A stretch of DNA of 61,898 nt from Herbiconiux ginsengi (GTDB taxonomy: Bacteria > Actinomycetota > Actinomycetes > Actinomycetales > Microbacteriaceae), in contig NZ_FNPZ01000010.1 in the NCBI RefSeq assembly GCF_900107435.1, positions 1-61,898 on the forward strand, in the 5' to 3' direction. Position numbers and translations under genes: made by a program. Positions 2,425 to 42,833 of this stretch are shown here, in pieces; within the stretch, counting starts at the first letter, position 1; each line of letters starts with the position of its first letter. The notes under the pieces were generated by a model that was not told the origin of the DNA, searched no databases, and saw only the letters and a program-made list of their open reading frames with translations.

Positions 2425-3558
2425 TCAGTCGGCAGTGACAGGGGCGAATCGAGGCACGGCGACGGGTAGTCCGCCCTGCATCGCCGAGTCATGGGCTGCA
2501 ATCCCGACGCTCGTCCAGTTCGCTGAGGTGACGGCGTCGATCGCCGAGGGACGGCCCTCGCGTGCGCTGGTGACGAACTCATGGACGAGGTGTGGATGCG
2601 AGCCGCCGTGTCCAGACCCCTGAATGAAGGACAGGTGCGCATTCGATTCGTCGTACACGCCGTGTCGAGTGAATGATCGAATGGCTTCGGGAAGCCGCTC
2701 GGCGAAATCGGGCACAGTGACGCGTTCGGCCTGCTCCCCCTGGAAGACCACCGGGTTGTCGCCTGCGATCTGCTCCCATTCGAAGGATCCCAGAGATCCG
2801 TACACGTCGAAGCTCTCGACATATTCGCGGGCGGTCTCGAAGAGGGAACGAGTGACCTCGGCCGCCACGTCCGAGTCGGCGATACCGATGAGGGCCGTCT
2901 CGACCGCGAACGGCGACCCATAGCGTTCTGCCAGCTGGGGATCGATGGAACCAGAACCTCGGCAGACCACGACTTCAGCGAGTCTGCCGGCGAGCGTGAG
3001 GAGCGGCCCTACCGCGTGAGTGGCGTAGTGCATGGGCGGGAGGCCTTCCCAGTACCCGGGCCAGCCGGCCATCTCCTGCTGGTGCGCACCGCGGAGGAAC
3101 TGGATACGACCGAGCTTTCCCGCTGCGACGAGCTGCTGCACGAAGAGGAACTCACGCGTGTAGACGGCGGTCTCCATCATCATGTACGTCCGACCGCTCG
3201 CTCGCGCGGCATCGACTACACGCTGACAGTCCTCGATCGAGGTAGCCATCGGCACCGTGCAGGCGACATGTTTGCCCGCCTCCAGTGCAGCGATAGCTTG
3301 CTCGGCATGCAGCGGAATCGGGGTGTTGATGTGAACTGCGTCGATGTCCCGATCGACGAGCAGATCCTCGAAGTCGGCATAGCGGGTCTCGATCCCGAAC
3401 TCGTCGCCCACGGAATTCAGCCGCACCCGGTCGCGCTGGCAGATCGCCGCGAGGGCGGCATCGGGATGCGCCTGATAGATCGGGATGAACTCGGCGCCGA
3501 ACCCGAGGCCGACGAGGGCAACTTTCAGCGGGACCTTTGTGCTGATGGGCTGCGACAT
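2425..3558 (-). CDS. Gfo/Idh/MocA-family NAD(P)-dependent oxidoreductase with atypical active-site motif
   Basis: This 377-aa protein has an N-terminal Rossmann fold (GLGFGAEF at about 17-24) and the C-terminal alpha/beta domain of the Gfo/Idh/MocA family, which oxidises sugars, inositols and glycosides. The usual EKP motif with the catalytic lysine is replaced by CTVPMA at about residues 100-105, so that lysine is absent. Later conserved stretches (YMMMETAVY; HYATHAVGP) remain. It is the first gene of the ABC importer operon and is divergent from the ROK regulator. Together with the TIM-barrel protein at 60111 it suggests oxidation then isomerisation or elimination of an imported sugar; this is inference. 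Confidence 0.9.
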   Translation of the reverse strand: MSQPISTKVPLKVALVGLGFGAEFIPIYQAHPDAALAAICQRDRVRLNSVGDEFGIETRYADFEDLLVDRDIDAVHINTPIPLHAEQAIAALEAGKHVACTVPMATSIEDCQRVVDAARASGRTYMMMETAVYTREFLFVQQLVAAGKLGRIQFLRGAHQQEMAGWPGYWEGLPPMHYATHAVGPLLTLAGRLAEVVVCRGSGSIDPQLAERYGSPFAVETALIGIADSDVAAEVTRSLFETAREYVESFDVYGSLGSFEWEQIAGDNPVVFQGEQAERVTVPDFAERLPEAIRSFTRHGVYDESNAHLSFIQGSGHGGSHPHLVHEFVTSAREGRPSAIDAVTSANWTSVGIAAHDSAMQGGLPVAVPRFAPVTAD

Positions 3559-36055: not shown

Positions 36056-36436
36056 ATGGACGACGTCACGCCCGACCTTTCAGGCCACACGGCGGTCCGC
36101 CAGGCACCGAGGCACAATGGAGCCATGCCGAGCCGTCGAGACCCGACCGACATGCCCGAGCGAGCCGAAGTGGCGTATCGCTCGATTTCCGGCAGCTCTC
36201 GCATGATGACGCTGCGCTTCCTCCTCGACCACCCGAAGTCGACGGTCGCCGCGATCGCGGACGCCACCGGCGTGAGCCCCGCATCAGCGCGCGTCTCACT
36301 CACCGACCTCGAGGACGCCGGCTACGTCACCGCCGACGTCGAGGGCCAACGCAACGGCCGCACCGTTCGATACTCCGCCGATCGCGGAAAGTTCGTTGAC
36401 GACCTCAGCCTGTTGTGGTCCTGGATGGTTCGCTGA
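36056..36436 (+). CDS. Winged-helix DNA-binding protein
   Basis: A 126-aa protein with an ArsR/MarR-like winged helix (MMTLRFLLDHPKSTVAAIADATGV...ASARVSLTDLEDAGYV then wing QRNGRTVRYSA). AGGAGA lies nine bases before ATG 36056; ATG 36125 would give a shorter protein. It is divergent from the transfer operon, which it probably regulates, and ends 19 bases before palindrome copy 2. Confidence 0.8.
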   Translation: MDDVTPDLSGHTAVRQAPRHNGAMPSRRDPTDMPERAEVAYRSISGSSRMMTLRFLLDHPKSTVAAIADATGVSPASARVSLTDLEDAGYVTADVEGQRNGRTVRYSADRGKFVDDLSLLWSWMVR

Positions 36437-36454
36437 CGCCTTCATCTCGAGCTG

Positions 36455-36474
36455 ATTGACACCTAGGTGTCAAC
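36455..36474. repeat. Backbone palindrome copy 2
   Basis: ATTGACACCTAGGTGTCAAC; its 18-bp core is a perfect palindrome. It lies just after the HTH gene and before the 98-nt leader element at 36526. Confidence 0.85.
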
Positions 36475-36525
36475 GCCCCTCCCCCGCTCCGCGGGCGTTA
36501 CAGCACCAAGACCGGCCGCCACATC

Positions 36526-36623
36526 GTAGTTCACTCCCGGCGCTCCGTTCCGGACTTCTCGAACGCGCCCCTGATGGGGCTTATTTCGCCCGAGATCTCC
36601 GGCACTACGCGCCTCCCGCTCAC
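36526..36623 (+). ncRNA. 98-nt conserved leader element, copy A
   Basis: This stretch is 91/98 identical to the reverse strand of 42346-42443. In each case it precedes a glutaredoxin gene by 47-52 bases. Copy A can fold with CCGGACTTCTCG (36550-36561) against CGAGATCTCCGG (36591-36602), two central mismatches, and an inner perfect hairpin GCCCC-TGAT-GGGGC (36567-36580). It is either a cis-acting RNA or a conserved DNA element. Confidence 0.65.
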
Positions 36624-36675
36624 CATCGATGCTCTTGCCGGTTTTGGCACTTCAAAATGTCTGGGAGGAATCATC

Positions 36676-36909
36676 ATGGTCACCGTCTACGGCCGAAGCG
36701 ATTGCGCACAGTGCACCGCCACGAAACGAACCCTCGAAATCAAAGAAGTCGAGCACGTGTACCTCGACGTCGAGCAATTCCCCGATGTGTGCGACTACCT
36801 GCGCTCGCTTGGTCACCAGCAGCTCCCCGTCGTGATCGCCGGGCCGGCCCACTGGTCAGGCTTCCGTCCCGACCTCATCGTGGCTGTGGCGTTACGCAGT
36901 CGTGATTAA
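36676..36909 (+). CDS. NrdH-type glutaredoxin-like protein A
   Basis: A 77-aa thioredoxin-fold protein with redox motif CAQC (GRSDCAQCTATKRTL), cis-Pro region QLPVV and C-terminal WSGFRPD typical of NrdH redoxins that reduce ribonucleotide reductase. No nrd genes are in the window. ATG at 36676 follows GGGAGGAA. A second, diverged copy is encoded at 42056-42298. Confidence 0.85.
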   Translation: MVTVYGRSDCAQCTATKRTLEIKEVEHVYLDVEQFPDVCDYLRSLGHQQLPVVIAGPAHWSGFRPDLIVAVALRSRD

Positions 36910-37026
36910 TGCAATAGTTTATGTGCTTCGCATATTTCCAATAAAGTATTGATTTAGAAGCCTTTAAAGTATTGTGTTGCTGATGTTTATTGCGTTAGCA
37001 TAAACGCAATATTATGAGGAGGCGTC
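36910..37026. promoter_or_regulatory. AT-rich ParA promoter/centromere candidate
   Basis: This 117-base stretch is far richer in A and T than the rest of the window. It contains several TAAAGTATTG-like words (36950s, 36965-36974) and a perfect 9-bp inverted repeat TATTGCGTT (36988-36996) / AACGCAATA (37003-37011) six bases apart. Partition complexes of ParA with a small CBP often bind such repeats upstream of parA. Confidence 0.55.
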
Positions 37027-37905
37027 ATGCCGCACATCACGACGATCGCGAACAACAAGGGCGGAGTGGGAAAGTCGCACCTGACGGTGCAGCTCGCCGC
37101 GGCCCTTGCGCGACGAGGGTTGCGGGTCTTGGTGGTCGATCTCGACCCACAGGCGAATACAACTCGACGGCTCGGAATCGAGATCGATCCGCAAAATGCG
37201 ATCGTCACCATGTCCGAGGTCATCAAGTCCGGCGAGGACGGCGCGGGGGAGTCCGCCGTCCTTGCGTGCGGCTGGGTTGACAGCGAGGGCCAGCCCACCC
37301 CGGAGTCAGAGCTGATCGATGTCCTGCCATCACGATATGACCTCATCAATCGCGAATCAGAGGCGGCCGTTCTCGGTGCAGTGCGTCGACTTCGGAGAGC
37401 GCTCACTGGGTGGATCGACGACTACGACGTCGTGCTCATCGACACCCGGCCAGACCTCGGCCACCTGGTGCAGATGGCGTTTGCTGCTGCCGATACCATC
37501 CTCATCCCGACTGACCCGGCTTACGACTCGATCGAAGCGGCGATCCGCGTGCGTGACTTCGTCGAGCGCCACGCTGTCGACCTAGTGAACCCGGATCTTC
37601 GCGTCGCCGGCGTCGTCGTCACCCGTCGCAAGCCGACAGCCGAGCACGACTTCCAGATTCAGGGCATCGAGGAGCAGTTCGGCGACCTGGTGTGGAGCCT
37701 CAAAGGACCCGTGCACTGGCCAGACGGGGGAGTGACGGTCAATCCGGCGTACATCTCCGAATGGTCGCGGTTCACGGAAGCAGATGCCGCCGCGGCATCT
37801 CTGAACTCTTACAACGATCGAAACTCACGCAAGACCGTTGCCCTGTATGACGCACTCGCGTCACGATTCATCGACGAACTAATCCGAACGGGAGCACGAG
37901 CATGA
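37027..37905 (+). CDS. parA: ParA partition ATPase
   Basis: A 292-aa ParA with Walker A KGGVGKSH (about residues 11-18), Walker B VLIDTRPDLG and DLDPQANTT motif. It lacks an N-terminal HTH. ATG at 37027 follows GAGGAGG. Its TGA overlaps the ATG of the ParB-like gene. It would drive segregation of the plasmid. Confidence 0.93.
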   Translation: MPHITTIANNKGGVGKSHLTVQLAAALARRGLRVLVVDLDPQANTTRRLGIEIDPQNAIVTMSEVIKSGEDGAGESAVLACGWVDSEGQPTPESELIDVLPSRYDLINRESEAAVLGAVRRLRRALTGWIDDYDVVLIDTRPDLGHLVQMAFAAADTILIPTDPAYDSIEAAIRVRDFVERHAVDLVNPDLRVAGVVVTRRKPTAEHDFQIQGIEEQFGDLVWSLKGPVHWPDGGVTVNPAYISEWSRFTEADAAAASLNSYNDRNSRKTVALYDALASRFIDELIRTGARA

Positions 37906-38336
37906 GCCAGCCCCAGCGGCGTCGCCCCGGAAGCGCGAGTCCGATCAAGCTCGTGCCCACTGTCGAGCCGGTACAGACGCCGACCGTGACAGCGCCCGAA
38001 GCGCCGGTGGAAGCGTCCGCAGTTGCGCCTCAGCCCTCTAAGCCGGCAGGGCGCAAGCCCCTCAAGTCACCACCCGCAACCGCTCCAACTGCCACAAAAG
38101 ACGCCGCCGATGTCAAGACACCGGTAACAGTGACCATCCACCGATCGGTCAAGAAGACCGCCGAAACCGCCGTGCTGCGCACGGCGGGATTTCCAAACGG
38201 TTATCCCTCGTTCTCCGCACTTGTCGAAGGCGCCATTCAGCGCGAGCTGCAACGTCTTGCAGACGAATACAACGGGGGAGAGGCGTTTACGCCTAATGGA
38301 GGAAGCTTCCGCCAGGGTCGACCGTTCAGTTCGTAG
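37902..38336 (+). CDS. Small ParB-like centromere-binding protein
   Basis: A 144-aa protein: a proline/alanine-rich disordered N-terminal half and a C-terminal ribbon-helix-helix-like part (PVTVTIHRSVKKTAETAVLRTAGFPNGYPSF... split around residues 73-105). Overlap with parA (ATGA) and this architecture suggest the centromere-binding partner. It likely binds the repeats upstream of parA. Confidence 0.7.
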   Translation: MSQPQRRRPGSASPIKLVPTVEPVQTPTVTAPEAPVEASAVAPQPSKPAGRKPLKSPPATAPTATKDAADVKTPVTVTIHRSVKKTAETAVLRTAGFPNGYPSFSALVEGAIQRELQRLADEYNGGEAFTPNGGSFRQGRPFSS

Positions 38337-38396
38337 GAGCGATCAGCCCACATGCACTTGTATATTCGGTTCAACGCGTAAAGGGGGAGTCACACC

Positions 38397-39545
38397 GTGG
38401 CTGTGCGTGTTCCGGTAAGCCCAACGATGCTGACGTGGGCGCTTCAACGGTCCGGCATGCCCACGAGCAGCGCGCGCTATGAACAATTCTCCAAATGGGC
38501 GGCCGGCGACGGGCAGCCGACCTTCAAACAGTTGGAGGGATTCGCCCACGCCACACATACCCCCCTTGGCTACCTGTTCCTGCCGGAGCCACCTGAGGAG
38601 CCCGTACCAATCCCGGACTTTCGGACTCTCGGCAATAACGCCATCAGTGCGCCGAGCCCCGATCTGCTCGACACAATCTATGAAGCGCAGAGACGCCAAG
38701 ACTGGTTCCGCTCGTATGCAGCCGACCAGGGCCACGAGCCGTTCTCGTTCGTGGGCTCGGCCACGATCGACGACTCCCCGGCCATTGTGGCTGACGAGAT
38801 TCGTCGCATGCTCGACTTCGGATTAGATCGGCGTGCGCGCTTCTCCTCCTGGGAAGAGGCTCTGCGGCAGCTAATCGACTCAGTAGAGCAGCTTGGCGTA
38901 CTAGTCATGGTGTCCGGCATCGTTGGGAGCAATACCCACCGGATACTCGATCCCAGTGAGTTCCGGGGATTTGCGCTCACCGACCCCCTGTCGTCGCTGG
39001 TCTTTGTGAACGGTGCGGATACGAAGTCTGCCCAGATATTCACTCTTATCCACGAGCTGGCCCACATCTGGCTGGGCGAGACGGCGCTGTCGGACGCGCA
39101 AATGGCGAACCAGACTCAGAACGATCACGAGTTGTGGGCGAACAACGTCGCCGCCGAGGTTCTAGTGCCGTCTAGCTCGATCAGGATCGACTATCGGCAA
39201 AACAGCGATTTCGGCGAACTGCAGCGTCTGGCACGGCTCTATAAGGTCAGCACTCTCGTCGTGCTGAAACGCATTTTCGATAGCGGATTCCTCACTTGGG
39301 ACGACTACCGCGCTCGCTATCAGACCGAGCTGGAACGACTGCAAGAGATCATCGCCTCACGAAAAGGAAGTGGCGGCGGTGACTACTACAACACTCAGCC
39401 TCTTCGAATCAGTCAGTCGTTCGCGCGGGCCGTGATTGTGGACGCCCTGGAAGGTCGCACGCTGTATCGGGACGCCTTCAGTCTCCTGGGTGCTGCCAAG
39501 CGATCCACCTTTGAGGGCATGGCCAACAAGTTGGGGGTGGCGTGA
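38397..39545 (+). CDS. ImmA/IrrE metallopeptidase-domain regulator (antitoxin-like)
   Basis: A 382-aa protein with an N-terminal Xre-like region and a ImmA/IrrE zinc peptidase with HELAH motif (His219, Glu220, His223 in LIHELAHIWLGE). GTG at 38397 follows GGGGGAG. Its TGA overlaps the ATG of the DUF4411 gene. Such pairs are predicted toxin-antitoxin modules in which this protein is the antitoxin. Confidence 0.85.
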   Translation: MAVRVPVSPTMLTWALQRSGMPTSSARYEQFSKWAAGDGQPTFKQLEGFAHATHTPLGYLFLPEPPEEPVPIPDFRTLGNNAISAPSPDLLDTIYEAQRRQDWFRSYAADQGHEPFSFVGSATIDDSPAIVADEIRRMLDFGLDRRARFSSWEEALRQLIDSVEQLGVLVMVSGIVGSNTHRILDPSEFRGFALTDPLSSLVFVNGADTKSAQIFTLIHELAHIWLGETALSDAQMANQTQNDHELWANNVAAEVLVPSSSIRIDYRQNSDFGELQRLARLYKVSTLVVLKRIFDSGFLTWDDYRARYQTELERLQEIIASRKGSGGGDYYNTQPLRISQSFARAVIVDALEGRTLYRDAFSLLGAAKRSTFEGMANKLGVA

Positions 39546-40027
39546 CGTATCTGCTCGACGCCAATATTTTCATTCAGTCGAATCAAGCGCATTACGGGCT
39601 GGACTTCGTGCCGGCCTTCTGGGATTGGCTCGACCGCTCGTTCAATGCTGGTCTGCTGAAAAGCATTCAACCCATTGGCACTGAGATCGCCGCCGGACAT
39701 GACGATCTCACGACCTGGGCGGCAGCTCGCTCGTCAATGTTCGTGCCGATGGATGCGGCGTGTGCTCCCAGCCTGCAAGCCCTTGCCACGTGGGCGAATG
39801 CCGGGCATTTCACCGCTGCCGCTGTCACCGAGTTCCTAGGAGCAGCGGACTACGAGCTGGTTGCGTATGCGCACGCGCACAGTCTCACCGTCGTCACGAT
39901 GGAGAAGTCGGAACCGCAACGACGCAACAAGGTCAAAATTCCGGATGCATGCATCGCACACGGCGTCGCTTGGAGGACTCCGTTCGAAATGCTGCGGCTC
40001 GAAAATGCGTCCTTCGTCCTGCCGTAA
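39542..40027 (+). CDS. DUF4411 PIN-like putative toxin
   Basis: A 161-aa protein starting TYLLDANIFIQS, with PIN-domain acidic residues (LDAN; GTEI; MEKSEP; IPDAC). DUF4411 proteins are predicted PIN-fold RNases paired with ImmA/IrrE proteins. ATG overlaps the preceding stop. It ends 10 bases before palindrome copy 3. Confidence 0.82.
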   Translation: MTYLLDANIFIQSNQAHYGLDFVPAFWDWLDRSFNAGLLKSIQPIGTEIAAGHDDLTTWAAARSSMFVPMDAACAPSLQALATWANAGHFTAAAVTEFLGAADYELVAYAHAHSLTVVTMEKSEPQRRNKVKIPDACIAHGVAWRTPFEMLRLENASFVLP

Positions 40028-40037
40028 CTCGAGCCGG

Positions 40038-40057
40038 GTTGACACCTAAGTGTCAAC
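40038..40057. repeat. Backbone palindrome copy 3
   Basis: GTTGACACCTAAGTGTCAAC, one mismatch from perfect symmetry. It lies between the convergent DUF4411 and HicB genes. Confidence 0.8.
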
Positions 40058-40062
40058 GAAGA

Positions 40063-40485
40063 TCAGTGTGAGAGCTGGCTGATTCGTTGAGCGGATAGGC
40101 CGAGCGCGCGGGCAACGTCGGCTTGTGTGAGGCCGCTCTTTTTGAGGGTTTGCACGGCCTCGCGCCGAAGGCGCGCGGCCGCTGCGGCCGCTTCACGGGA
40201 GTGCTCTTCGTTCTCGTTCGCCTCGGCCCACATTGTGGCGGCGGCCTCGGGGAGCTCCACGGTGACGTCGACGACGATCTGATCGTCGTCGACGTCGAGC
40301 CAGACGGCGGCGAGGTCGCGGGCGGCCTGGTCGACGTCCTTCAACGCGACGGCGCCGCCGATTGCGACGATGGTGGAGCCGTTGGGGCCGGTGGAGGTGA
40401 GTTCGGGAATCTCGATCGTCCACCACTTGCCGGCGTCGCGGTAGGCGCGTGCGTGGAGCGTGCGGGGCATCTGGCTGGTCTTCAC
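40063..40485 (-). CDS. hicB: HicB-type antitoxin with C-terminal HTH
   Basis: A 140-aa protein: HicB-like N-terminal fold (WWTIEIPELTSTG...DVDQAARDLAAVWLDVD) and a C-terminal helix-turn-helix (LTQADVARALGLSAQRISQL). GTG at 40485 follows the HicA stop by one base, and gives MKT-type N-terminus seen in relatives. It neutralises HicA and probably represses the operon through 40705-40743. Confidence 0.85.
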   Translation of the reverse strand: MKTSQMPRTLHARAYRDAGKWWTIEIPELTSTGPNGSTIVAIGGAVALKDVDQAARDLAAVWLDVDDDQIVVDVTVELPEAAATMWAEANENEEHSREAAAAAARLRREAVQTLKKSGLTQADVARALGLSAQRISQLSH

Positions 40486-40486
40486 A

Positions 40487-40696
40487 TCAATTCCATTCAC
40501 GAGGCGCATCCGGGAAAATCTGCTGAATCTGTCGAACCACTCCGACCGAAACCTCACCCTTGTGAGCGACGAGTGAGAAGATCATGCCGGATTCGGACGG
40601 CCCCCAGATTTCGTGGCTGCCCTTCTGGCGTTTGAACTCCCAGCCCTTCGATCGCAGGAACTTGGTAACGTCCCGGTACTTCTGTGGCTTGGTCAT
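40487..40696 (-). CDS. hicA: HicA-type mRNA interferase toxin
   Basis: A 69-aa double-stranded-RNA-binding-fold toxin with the family motif GSHEIWGP and catalytic His, and C-terminal VRQIQQIFPD. ATG start at 40696. It lies just upstream of hicB in the same operon and stabilises the plasmid. Confidence 0.9.
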   Translation of the reverse strand: MTKPQKYRDVTKFLRSKGWEFKRQKGSHEIWGPSESGMIFSLVAHKGEVSVGVVRQIQQIFPDAPREWN

Positions 40697-40704
40697 GAGT
40701 CTAG

Positions 40705-40743
40705 TCTAGTCCCCCTAGATAGTAAAGATCAAGGGGGACTAGA
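40705..40743. promoter_or_regulatory. HicAB operator candidate
   Basis: TCTAGTCCCCCT (40705-40716) and AGGGGGACTAGA (40732-40743) are perfect 12-bp inverted arms around 15 bases. It is 9 bases upstream of the hicA start, suited to autorepression by HicB. Confidence 0.6.
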
Positions 40744-40748
40744 TGTTT

Positions 40749-40955
40749 TCAGCTATTTGGGTACAGGATGGCATGTCCGATCAGGCCGACGATGAGCGGG
40801 CCGATGATGAGTAGCAGCCCGAGCGCGAATGCGGCAAGAGATGCACGGGCGAGGCCGCGGCGGCCGCGGCCTCGGATCGGGAGCACGCGGGGGAGTACGA
40901 ACAGTACGGCGACACAGGCGAAGACGGCAAAGCCTGCCGCTTGTAGCGCCTGCAT
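40749..40955 (-). CDS. Small two-span membrane protein
   Basis: A 68-aa protein with two hydrophobic helices separated by a basic loop (RGRGRRGLARAS). Four bases after the SprT-like gene, so probably in the same operon. Function unknown. Confidence 0.6.
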   Translation of the reverse strand: MQALQAAGFAVFACVAVLFVLPRVLPIRGRGRRGLARASLAAFALGLLLIIGPLIVGLIGHAILYPNS

Positions 40956-40958
40956 GGT

Positions 40959-41591
40959 TCACCCCTCGTCGTCCTCTGCTTCGAACTCAGCGTTGCACAC
41001 ACCGCAGACGATGGGGCCGACCTCGAATGTGGAGCGGCTGACGCGGAGCTTCCGCCCGCATTCACAGACGGCCACCACGCCGCTGTTGGTCTTCTTGCTC
41101 ACGGCTCCGATGTCGGTGAGGCGGTAGGCGACGATCGCGGCGTCGAGAGCGTCGATGGCGTGGCGGTAGCTGTCGGCGGTCGCGTCGGGTACGTCGGTGA
41201 TCGACCAGCCGATCGAGGGGTCTTTGGTGAGGGTGAGCCCGAATTCTTCGCCGATGGCCTTGAAGCGGGTGTTGTGGAATCGGCCCTGTCGGCTGGTGTC
41301 TTTGATCCCGCGGGCCTCGGCGGCGGCGTGGGCAGCTTCGTGGATGAGGGTGCCGAGCACGGCGCGGCCGCCGCGCTGGAGTCCTTCACCGCCTACCAGC
41401 AGCTCGTGCACGAGGGCATCGCCGCGTGCCCAGCGTGAGGCGGCGAAGTGGCCGTAGGCCATGCCGCCGCGGCCGTTGCCGGAGGCGAGAGTCACGACGA
41501 CCTCGGGAACGTCTTCGTGGCGGTCCTGGATCGCGGCCCAGGCTTCTTCGATCGCGGCCACGAGGGGCACGGTGATGGTTGTGGTGGTCAA
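40959..41591 (-). CDS. SprT-like metallopeptidase domain protein
   Basis: A 210-aa protein with zinc-peptidase motif HEAAH (His84, Glu85, His88) and a C-terminal zinc ribbon (CECG and CGVC). SprT-like proteins cleave DNA-protein crosslinks; on a plasmid it may clear covalent relaxase or replication complexes (inference). ATG at 41591 overlaps the upstream stop. Confidence 0.85.
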   Translation of the reverse strand: MTTTTITVPLVAAIEEAWAAIQDRHEDVPEVVVTLASGNGRGGMAYGHFAASRWARGDALVHELLVGGEGLQRGGRAVLGTLIHEAAHAAAEARGIKDTSRQGRFHNTRFKAIGEEFGLTLTKDPSIGWSITDVPDATADSYRHAIDALDAAIVAYRLTDIGAVSKKTNSGVVAVCECGRKLRVSRSTFEVGPIVCGVCNAEFEAEDDEG

Positions 41592-42025
41592 CGTCCTGCC
41601 TCCTGGTCGGCGGATCCGGGATGGTGGGCGTCGCCCTCTTCGTCGCCCTCGGCGTGACGCTCGATCCAGAGCGCGGCGGTGTCGGTGGCTCCGGCGGCGC
41701 GGAGAAGATCGGCGAGGGCGTCGACCTCGCCGCAGTTGAGGGTTGCGGCGACGTCGCCCGCGGTGTCCCAGGTGAAGGCGGCCACGAAGCGCTCGAGCAC
41801 GGTCGTGGCGATGGGGGTGCTTTCGGTCACGGTATAGCCGGAGAGGATGCCATCACGCATCAGGGCGAGTTCTTCAATCGTGGAGTTCATTGCGTCGTGC
41901 TGGTCGAAGGGGATGAGCCCGAATTCCCAGTTCTCGCCGTATTGGTGGTCGAGCCACTTCGAAGCAAGTTCAACATCGGTGGCGGCGGTGATCGCGGTCC
42001 CATCGGGGGTGGTGAGTGTGAGCAT
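41588..42025 (-). CDS. Hypothetical plasmid backbone protein
   Basis: A 145-aa acidic protein. N-terminal LTLTTPDGTAI and VELASKWLDHQYGENWEF suggest a small alpha/beta domain, and the C-terminus is rich in Glu, Asp and His. Its stop overlaps the SprT start. Function unknown. Confidence 0.6.
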   Translation of the reverse strand: MLTLTTPDGTAITAATDVELASKWLDHQYGENWEFGLIPFDQHDAMNSTIEELALMRDGILSGYTVTESTPIATTVLERFVAAFTWDTAGDVAATLNCGEVDALADLLRAAGATDTAALWIERHAEGDEEGDAHHPGSADQEAGR

Positions 42026-42055
42026 GGCTGTCGTCCTTTCTCAGATCGGGTCGGG

Positions 42056-42298
42056 TCAGAGTGCGTCGATGCAGTCGGGGCGGAATCCGGACCAGCCGTC
42101 CCAGGTGCCGGTGACGATCACGACGGGGAGCTGCAGGTAGCCGAGTTCGCGCAGCAGCTCGTCAGCTCCGGGCGTCTGGTCGACGTCGACGGGCTTGTAG
42201 GTGACGCCTTTGCGGTCGAGCGCGCGGTACGTGGCCGTGCACTGCACGCAGCCGGGGCGGCTGTAGACGGTGACCTTCGTCGTGATGGTGATTGTCAT
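42056..42298 (-). CDS. NrdH-type glutaredoxin-like protein B
   Basis: An 80-aa redoxin with CVQC active site (SRPGCVQCTATYRAL), QLPVV and WSGFRPD, related to copy A at 36676 but clearly diverged. ATG at 42298 follows GGAGAG. It is preceded on the minus strand by the second copy of the 98-nt leader element. Confidence 0.85.
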   Translation of the reverse strand: MTITITTKVTVYSRPGCVQCTATYRALDRKGVTYKPVDVDQTPGADELLRELGYLQLPVVIVTGTWDGWSGFRPDCIDAL

Positions 42299-42345
42299 GG
42301 TGCTCTCCAAACTTTTTCTCGGGCCGAACCCTCACGTGCATGGCA

Positions 42346-42443
42346 GTGAGCGGGAGGTGCGCAGTGCCGGAGTTCTCGGGCGAAATAAGCCCCGCCAGGG
42401 GCGCGTTCGAGAACTCCGGAACGGAGCGCCGGGAGCGAACTAC
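42346..42443 (-). ncRNA. 98-nt conserved leader element, copy B
   Basis: Reverse-strand partner of 36526-36623 with seven differences. It can form a perfect 12-bp stem, CCGGAGTTCTCG with CGAGAACTCCGG (42408-42419 and 42367-42378), enclosing hairpin GCCCC-TGGC-GGGGC (42389-42402). The inner stem is the same in both copies and only its tetraloop differs. Confidence 0.65.
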
Positions 42444-42512
42444 CGTGAATGCGAGGGTTTGGCCGGAGATGTCGAGCGCAGCGGGAAGGAAACAGCGGCC
42501 GTTAGGCCGGCC

Positions 42513-42833
42513 CTATTTGCCTGGCCGGCCAGGCTTCGGGATCGTCACCGCGGATCGCCAGACCCAAGCCTGGTGCGTGCCGCCGCCTTGGGTTTCCCAC
42601 TCGACGAGCACCATCCGGTCGTTGTAGGCGACCACCCGGCCGGCGACCTGGACCGTCCACTCGGGGTAACGCACCCACGCGAGCACCTGGGGCGCTTCCT
42701 CCGCCGGCGGCTGCACCGCCTCGCCGGTGGACTTCTTCTCGTCCTCAGTCAGCGAGAGCGGCTTGGGGCGCACCAGGACCGCATTGATCGCCTTATCGGT
42801 CAGGTCTGACCCGTATCGGCGATTCGTTCCCAT
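42513..42833 (-). CDS. Hypothetical backbone protein with SH3-like segment
   Basis: A 106-aa protein; the N-terminal half is polar and the C-terminal half is beta-rich (WTVQVAGRVVAYNDRMVLVEW, then WVWRSAVTIP), suggesting a small SH3/Tudor-like fold. ATG at 42833 lies 12 bases from a LexA-type box. Function unknown; SOS control is inferred. Confidence 0.6.
   Translation of the reverse strand: MGTNRRYGSDLTDKAINAVLVRPKPLSLTEDEKKSTGEAVQPPAEEAPQVLAWVRYPEWTVQVAGRVVAYNDRMVLVEWETQGGGTHQAWVWRSAVTIPKPGRPGK

Follow-up and report, generated by a model that had tools for sequence, protein, structure and literature searches.

The 98-nt element that occurs twice in the window, i.e., in the whole 61,898-nucleotide stretch of Herbiconiux ginsengi DNA analysed here, is probably a single-stranded-DNA ("fold-back") promoter of plasmid establishment genes, similar in its working to Frpo. 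This reading is backed by counts which concern the strand that folds, the position of a -10-like hexamer, the spacing to the downstream gene and, on five replicons, the identity of the folded strand with the transferred one. From these counts we infer that RNA polymerase is the reader of the element, where it starts, and that its action depends on the single-stranded state.

Copy A occupies 36526-36623 with its gene-sense orientation on the plus strand and its folded strand on the minus strand, and copy B occupies 42346-42443 with its gene-sense orientation on the minus strand and its folded strand on the plus strand. Each is 98 nt long and 91 of the 98 bases are identical, the seven differences falling at element positions 8, 30, 49, 50, 71, 82, and 86. 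The glutaredoxins encoded behind copy A (36676-36909, plus strand) and copy B (42056-42298, minus strand), both assigned to the Pfam family Glutaredoxin, are identical in 35 of 69 aligned residues (51%), which bears out the original prediction of two well-conserved copies before clearly diverged glutaredoxin genes. The spacer to the start codon measures 52 nt behind copy A (36624-36675, plus strand), where it contains a conserved GATGCTCTTGCCGGTTTTGGCA part and a ribosome-binding site, and 47 nt behind copy B (42299-42345, minus strand). The gene behind copy A is followed by a ParA-like gene (37027-37905), and that behind copy B heads a leftward group (41588-42025, 40959-41591). The two copies with their genes are convergent, facing each other. 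The fold that had been proposed for both copies stands in its inner part, a GCCCC/GGGGC stem which is the same in A and B; the 12-bp CCGGAGTTCTCG outer stem is perfect only in copy B, with two of its twelve pairs broken in copy A. On the antisense strand, the loops of the window copies are ATCA and GCCA, of four bases each. At the base of the folded strand, a -10-like hexamer is recognized by its sequence and by its TAnnnT position, namely, TACGAT in copy A (36523-36528, minus strand) and TACCGT in copy B (42441-42446, plus strand). GGAACG lies 17 nt upstream of it within the hairpin duplex in both copies (36546-36551, minus strand, and 42418-42423, plus strand); this hexamer at the -35 position is noncanonical, and a TTG-type -35 is absent from the window copies.

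The element is not a product of chance, given its blastn relatives, the covariance-model matches across the family, and a covariation score unmatched by shuffles. A blastn search with copy B retrieved nine other plasmid records (Herbiconiux, Cryobacterium, Mycetocola, Arthrobacter, and Rathayibacter) and nothing among phage records. The nine-copy alignments consist of the two window copies and seven copies from blastn, L016 being omitted as a near-duplicate of L011, and a covariance model (R1) was built on the antisense strand of these nine copies. At E ≤ 0.001, R1 has matches in 35 of the 249 genomes from the family of the window genome, this genome included; at E ≤ 0.0001, a second covariance model has matches in 5 of the 297 genomes from the order, two of which are not of this family. 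In both scans few candidates per genome were scored under strict filters, by which weak matches are lost. The window genome has two further copies on another contig. The 32-kb Mycetocola plasmid L018 has five copies (one of them weak, E 0.005), which precede nrdH, DUF3846, DprA, ArdC, and ParB genes. Relatives and compensatory changes were found, as would be looked for in a conserved cis-element. The predicted tie to NrdH-type genes did not hold up: nrdH lies behind the element in one Mycetocola case, and otherwise the genes downstream of the relatives are mostly unrelated to it, including ArdC, SSB, ParB, DprA, DUF3846, DUF3560, and DNA-methylase genes. Redoxin-specific regulation is ruled out by this variety.

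By eye, the copies can be divided into a common outer part and one of three inner modules, referred to as class I (the window type), class II (..GGGAGCNTGCGACC..), and class III. The class III core is also found without the common outer part. Its exact pattern has at least 118 matching stretches in genome contigs and, among the 80 matches listed by name, it is present in Actinomycetota, Bacillota, Pseudomonadota, and a Desulfovibrio; the pattern also occurs in 11 viral contigs, and a 2.6-kb Salmonella MOBV plasmid bears a related core. A search of published full text for element strings of 12-13 bases returned one unrelated paper only, and the literature on ssDNA promoters, leading regions, and ssi sites yielded no such report for actinobacteria among the papers listed, most subscription papers lying outside both searches.

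It is most likely the template strand that folds, rather than the mRNA. The nine copies contain no G·U pair when read on the sense strand, and A·C makes up 13 of the 24 broken cells (A·C counted by hand); these 13 cells are G·T on the antisense strand. In the MAFFT alignment, 95.5% of the cells pair on the antisense strand versus 90.4% on the sense strand (79.8% and 76.5% after shuffling), and none of the dealt shuffles of the alignment reaches the observed covariation score, the shared descent of the sequences meaning that p-values overstate. The covariation of the conserved element is strong. Among 61 distinct copies found by the model, the antisense strand shows 135 G·T, 14 A·C, 84 G·A, and 3 T·C; 42 of the 135 G·T are one near-constant pair and 38 of the 84 G·A come from class II rows that had to be aligned to the inner stem of class I. 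Cells with a double change number 308 in these copies, versus 91 after shuffling. The model behind the 61 copies leans to antisense pairs, so that counts to which nothing was fitted weigh more. In the outer stem of cores found by the core sequence alone (117 distinct flanks), the sense mismatches between Watson-Crick neighbours are A·C in 38 cases, G·T in 4, and other in 42; the inner hairpin of the same 117 distinct cores gives A·C 5, G·T 2, and other 12, which is not significant.

The predicted DNA folding points to the same strand. Greater stability of the antisense strand is predicted for 134 of the 138 cores and for 60 of the 61 elements, versus 124 of 186 random control segments of the element loci; single folds are uneven, and that of L013 is matched by 30 of 200 shuffles. 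According to a simple script, 28 of 83 distinct class III hairpins and 5 of 10 class I loops have GNA as the apical loop of the antisense strand, the corresponding numbers for the opposite direction being 3 and 0; class II loops are CNTG in 4 of 5 (by eye). Seen by eye, the helix runs on into the flanks, where it includes G·A-rich positions; a GC/GC to CC/GG change is compensating. It has been reported that d(GNA) triloops are a stable DNA family (PMC5815330, accessible text), and at Streptomyces telomeres GNA and CTTG loops are described and GNA is called a typical DNA motif (PMC7205883, accessible text).

Parts of a promoter are found on the antisense strand. TA stands at the end of the element in 59 of 61 distinct elements, and all 59 complete the hexamer TAnnnT, where 6.4 are expected; the search model does not extend to the sixth base. 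The hexamer reads TACGAT (38), TAGGTT, TACGGT, TATCGT, TACCGT, TAGATT, or TACAGT. In actinobacterial sigma-A promoters, the -10 is TAnnnT. Seventeen nt upstream of it, within the duplex, GGCACG or GGAACG is present in 28 of the 59, and several class III copies have TTGCGC or TTGACG at this distance. Around the cores, 34 of 131 antisense flanks contain the pattern TTGnnn-N15-18-TAnnnT, against a shuffled mean of 1.05 and maximum of 5; among the sense flanks it is present in 3 of 128, against 1.48 after shuffling. Between element and gene, TTGnnn-N16-18-TAnnnT in the sense direction is found in 0 of 53 intervals (shuffled 3.3). Composite spacers, such as that at L018 14811-14870, have a conserved stretch of approximately TCGATTCTCTTGCC(A/G)GACAGGCAAAAAAA between the element and the ribosome-binding site, which is perhaps the initially transcribed region.

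Genes and their starts were called with a codon-usage caller written for this work, whose calls were compared by eye with the annotated genes of a single plasmid, L018. Longest-ORF calling was set aside as it placed ORFs over 48 of 140 cores; its counts (29 sense, 52 opposite) show the reverse trend. Of 62 nonredundant elements, 57 are free of overlapping genes and have a gene called on their right; three of the other five are without a right-hand gene and two lie inside a called gene. The right-hand gene is read in the sense direction, away from the element, in 56 of the 57, at an element-to-start-codon distance of 47-61 nt in 41 of the 56. The left-hand gene has the same direction in 36 of these 56 cases. 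The class III cores, some of them within elements, were counted in the same way: 125 of 140 have a called right-hand gene and none over the core, and this gene is sense in 85 and opposite in 40. In the sense group, 58 of 85 genes start 60-125 nt from the core.

Twenty genes chosen from 97 listed downstream genes were compared with Pfam. DprA was found three times, ArdC twice, and glutaredoxin, DUF3846, ParB, SSB, DNA methylase, DUF3560, and HTH_17 once each; eight of the 20 gave no family, and no SOS inhibitor family (PsiB) appeared among them. In a Burkholderia cenocepacia contig (L123, 92,661 bp), a core lies 94 nt before a 222-aa gene whose relative in L072 is a DNA methylase. This gene is probably that of M.BceJIII, which is described as a single-strand-specific methyltransferase in the accessible text of PMC7736820. 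Among the class III cores with an opposite right-hand gene, 18 of 40 follow the 3′ end of this gene at a distance of 23-32 nt. Six such genes were translated: one is annotated as IS256, four are transposase-like by eye, and one is not. In L073 (5001-5043), L077, L094, L144, and L168, the class III core follows the stop codon of transposase-looking genes at 23-32 nt, as if insertion sequences carried or targeted the site.

The relation of the element to conjugative transfer can be read on plasmids with a MobC relaxase, which share a common inverted repeat followed by ATAGCTTGCTCC (the oriT motif). We place the nic of this oriT at TTG^C, on the 3′ side of the repeat. For 12 of 12 elements on five replicons, the folded strand and the oriT-motif strand are one and the same, namely, for five elements on L018, two on contig C6 of the window genome, one on G113, one on G069, and three on NZ_CP016284. 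Given the nic side, which is assumed from known rules, the folded strand is the transferred strand on these five replicons. Conversely, class III cores that lie 168-550 nt from the start of the oriT motif are in opposite orientation to the distal elements at 20 of 20 loci, with the folded strand on the nontransferred strand in all 20. L111 has both a near core in the opposite orientation and a distal core in the expected one. The oriT-proximal cores include L062 19467-19505 and L061 5001-5054, and several have glutaredoxin-like or small HTH-like genes downstream. It may be speculated that these cores act on the strand left in the donor. In the window, the ATAGCTTGCTCC oriT motif has one near match only, at 3293. 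As the window copies face each other, whichever strand is transferred can carry the folded strand of one copy only.

A class III core with three mismatches in its two conserved blocks is present in the F plasmid at about 54.0 kb (L203 4009-4060), 106 nt before a DNA methylase gene, and the F version of the core occurs in at least 5000 enterobacterial plasmid records. Most leading genes of F point in one direction, towards traM and traJ. We assume that the oriT of F lies at the traM/traJ side, in which case it is again the transferred strand that folds in the F core. The ssi sites of F were reportedly described in 1991, and one of these may be identical with the core. In the prediction, the DNA of the F core does not adopt a rod, and 13 of 200 shuffles are as good. 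The core is separate from the repeat pair at L203 8071-8622 and 13459-14012, which was taken for Frpo2 and Frpo1, respectively, from positions and similarity (PMC9849209, accessible text). In a blastn comparison of 202 elements and cores with F 50000-67500 at E up to 5, the best of the 2615 rows fell on the separate core near 54.0 kb; the Frpo intervals are touched by 462 rows, and the six top rows beyond that core all miss them. Both Frpo copies have, on the other strand, a half-core with 3 of 15 mismatches, which is no better than chance, 71 of 200 shuffles giving the like. The element as a sequence homolog of Frpo was therefore rejected, with no convincing similarity to Frpo1 or Frpo2. TTGnnn-N15-18-TAnnnT is absent from the F core and from both F intervals taken for Frpo, so that this pattern misses a known case.

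Among phages, blastn gave a single match (E 0.07), the microvirus Bajarodmic virus 506 (L069 1501-1560), where the core has a perfect stem of its own. It lies between the replication gene and a cluster of small genes, with the sense version on the gene-coding strand, and it is possibly the complementary-strand origin.

In the proposed mechanism, the plasmid would enter the recipient as one strand, which would fold into a rod of ~95 nt in which purine pairs of the G·A type link Watson-Crick helices and a GNA or CNTG loop often caps the end. The pairing in the rod is shown by covariation, and the purine pairs presumably have sheared geometry. The rod would replace duplex DNA upstream of the promoter, with the base of the hairpin near -12. 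The 3′ flank at this base would then offer a single-stranded nontemplate -10 (TAnnnT) about where the open complex begins, and, on the same strand, the 5′ flank would serve as the template into the gene; this geometry is suggested by the conserved positions. Host RNA polymerase would start in the spacer, ~35-50 nt before the start codon, to give mRNA for anti-restriction, SSB, ParB, DprA, glutaredoxin, and similar genes. Priming of the second strand is a further possible use of these transcripts. After conversion to duplex, the hairpin would be lost and the -35/-10 would face away from the gene. Several observations count against an ssDNA promoter: the 20 of 20 oriT-proximal cores that lie the other way, the convergent window copies, the 40 of 125 class III cores with an opposite gene, the noncanonical -35 of the window copies, the F core without a rod fold, and the orientation of the microvirus core.

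The folded strand might instead be a single-strand initiation site only, recruiting primase, or RNA polymerase as a maker of primers, with no mRNA function. Sites of the ssi kind are known, and Frpo is described as making both primers and mRNA (PMC7736820, accessible text). The related cores of the 2.6-kb Salmonella MOBV plasmid and of a microvirus, which is a single-stranded DNA phage, are in keeping with this. Priming alone, however, needs neither a narrow spacing to the start codon (41 of 56 at 47-61 nt) nor five elements before five genes, as in L018, nor a fixed place for the -10, and this explanation is considered rather unlikely. Improbable is also a cis-antisense RNA or leftward promoter of double-stranded DNA, of which the hairpin would be the operator or a part of that RNA. 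The antisense -35/-10 does point away from the gene in duplex DNA. Yet the hairpin lies upstream of that -10 and would be excluded from the leftward RNA, the transcript would run antisense into the left-hand gene in the 36 of 56 cases, and the right-hand gene would be left without a promoter of the searched type (0 of 53).

A transposon end, or a target repeat of insertion sequences spread by transposition, would account for the 18 of 40 cores behind the 3′ end of an opposite gene and for five of the six translated genes being IS256 or transposase-like. It is nonetheless a very improbable account of the element, as compensatory changes and a regular spacing to varied genes are unexpected of an IS end and no transposase adjoins the element in the plasmid stretches around the window type.

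The absence of a known riboswitch was anticipated correctly, as Rfam gave no match at the gathering threshold in the whole window, three unrelated matches at E up to 5 in 36400-42600, each below its own gathering score, and below-gathering matches only in other covariance searches at E-value thresholds. The idea of a cis-regulatory, riboswitch-like RNA leader of redox genes fared worse and is most unlikely: the sense strand is conserved at a narrow distance upstream of genes and folds well as RNA (0 of 200 shuffles as good for copy A, copy B, and L014; 15 and 42 of 200 for two other relatives), but the mRNA strand has no G·U pairs, fewer pairs, and weaker folding, the downstream genes are unrelated, Rfam has no match above threshold, and the pairing, G·T wobbles, G·A-rich helices, and GNA loops are kept by the template strand, a strand polarity by which the sense-strand leader was ruled out.

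The ssDNA promoter proposed here can be compared with several known systems. Promoters of the phage N4 virion RNA polymerase are template-strand hairpins with a compact loop; they differ in being served by a phage polymerase, in their much smaller hairpin, and in having no link to conjugation. As described in the accessible text of PMC9849209, PMC11541004, and PMC7736820, Frpo1 and Frpo2 of F and ssi2 and ssi3 of ColIb-P9 are transferred-strand hairpins upstream of leading-region genes directed towards oriT, have a -35/-10 tied to the fold, and occur in several copies per plasmid. The element likewise occurs in several copies per plasmid, and it may share the transferred strand, the direction of the genes, and the tie of the -35/-10 to the fold. 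Features of the Frpo type found here are a stable hairpin, predicted on single-stranded template-strand DNA, and a position directly upstream of ArdC, SSB, ParB, DprA, and DNA-methylase genes. Unlike Frpo, with which it has no convincing sequence relation, the element has its -10-like hexamer at the hairpin base, within the 3′ flank that is single-stranded. The telomeres of Streptomyces linear replicons, compared by fold features, are similar in that ssDNA folds there with GNA or CTTG loops and sheared purine pairs (PMC7205883, accessible text), but they are replicon ends and not promoters. The EGeRS of pLS20 are likewise a repeated element upstream of establishment operons of a Gram-positive plasmid; they are longer, and the nicked strand is the nontemplate strand there, for which reason the authors of the pLS20 study considered ssDNA promoters highly unlikely (PMC8708921, accessible text). 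On the five replicons here, it is the template strand. A 2024 survey, in its accessible text, found no Frpo-like sequence in its Streptococcus island (PMC11541004).

Expression from ssDNA during plasmid entry has been best studied in enterobacterial plasmids (F and ColIb-P9), and the element family addresses the question of how Gram-positive plasmids protect themselves in the first minutes. Since covariation defines the family and a start site and promoter boxes are predicted for it, the idea becomes directly testable in actinobacteria and, given the core in F, also in ordinary E. coli K-12 matings.

More tentatively, and with somewhat more doubt than belief, the element can be placed in a pan-bacterial family of ssDNA promoters unrelated in sequence to Frpo, whose carriers would be plasmids and integrated elements from Actinomycetota, Bacillota, and Pseudomonadota as well as one or more ssDNA phages. 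The family would include the unrecognized F site at ~54.0 kb before the DNA methylase gene; the fold would supply the upstream duplex and a single-stranded -10, with the other flank as template, and the oppositely oriented oriT copy would act on the donor strand. If this is true, establishment (anti-defence) genes are marked by a promoter across phyla.

In the window, the stretch 37027-40027 behind copy A encodes the ParA-like ATPase and then, as judged by eye, a protein with a HELAH zinc-peptidase motif and a PIN-like protein, the latter two being possibly related to establishment or defence.
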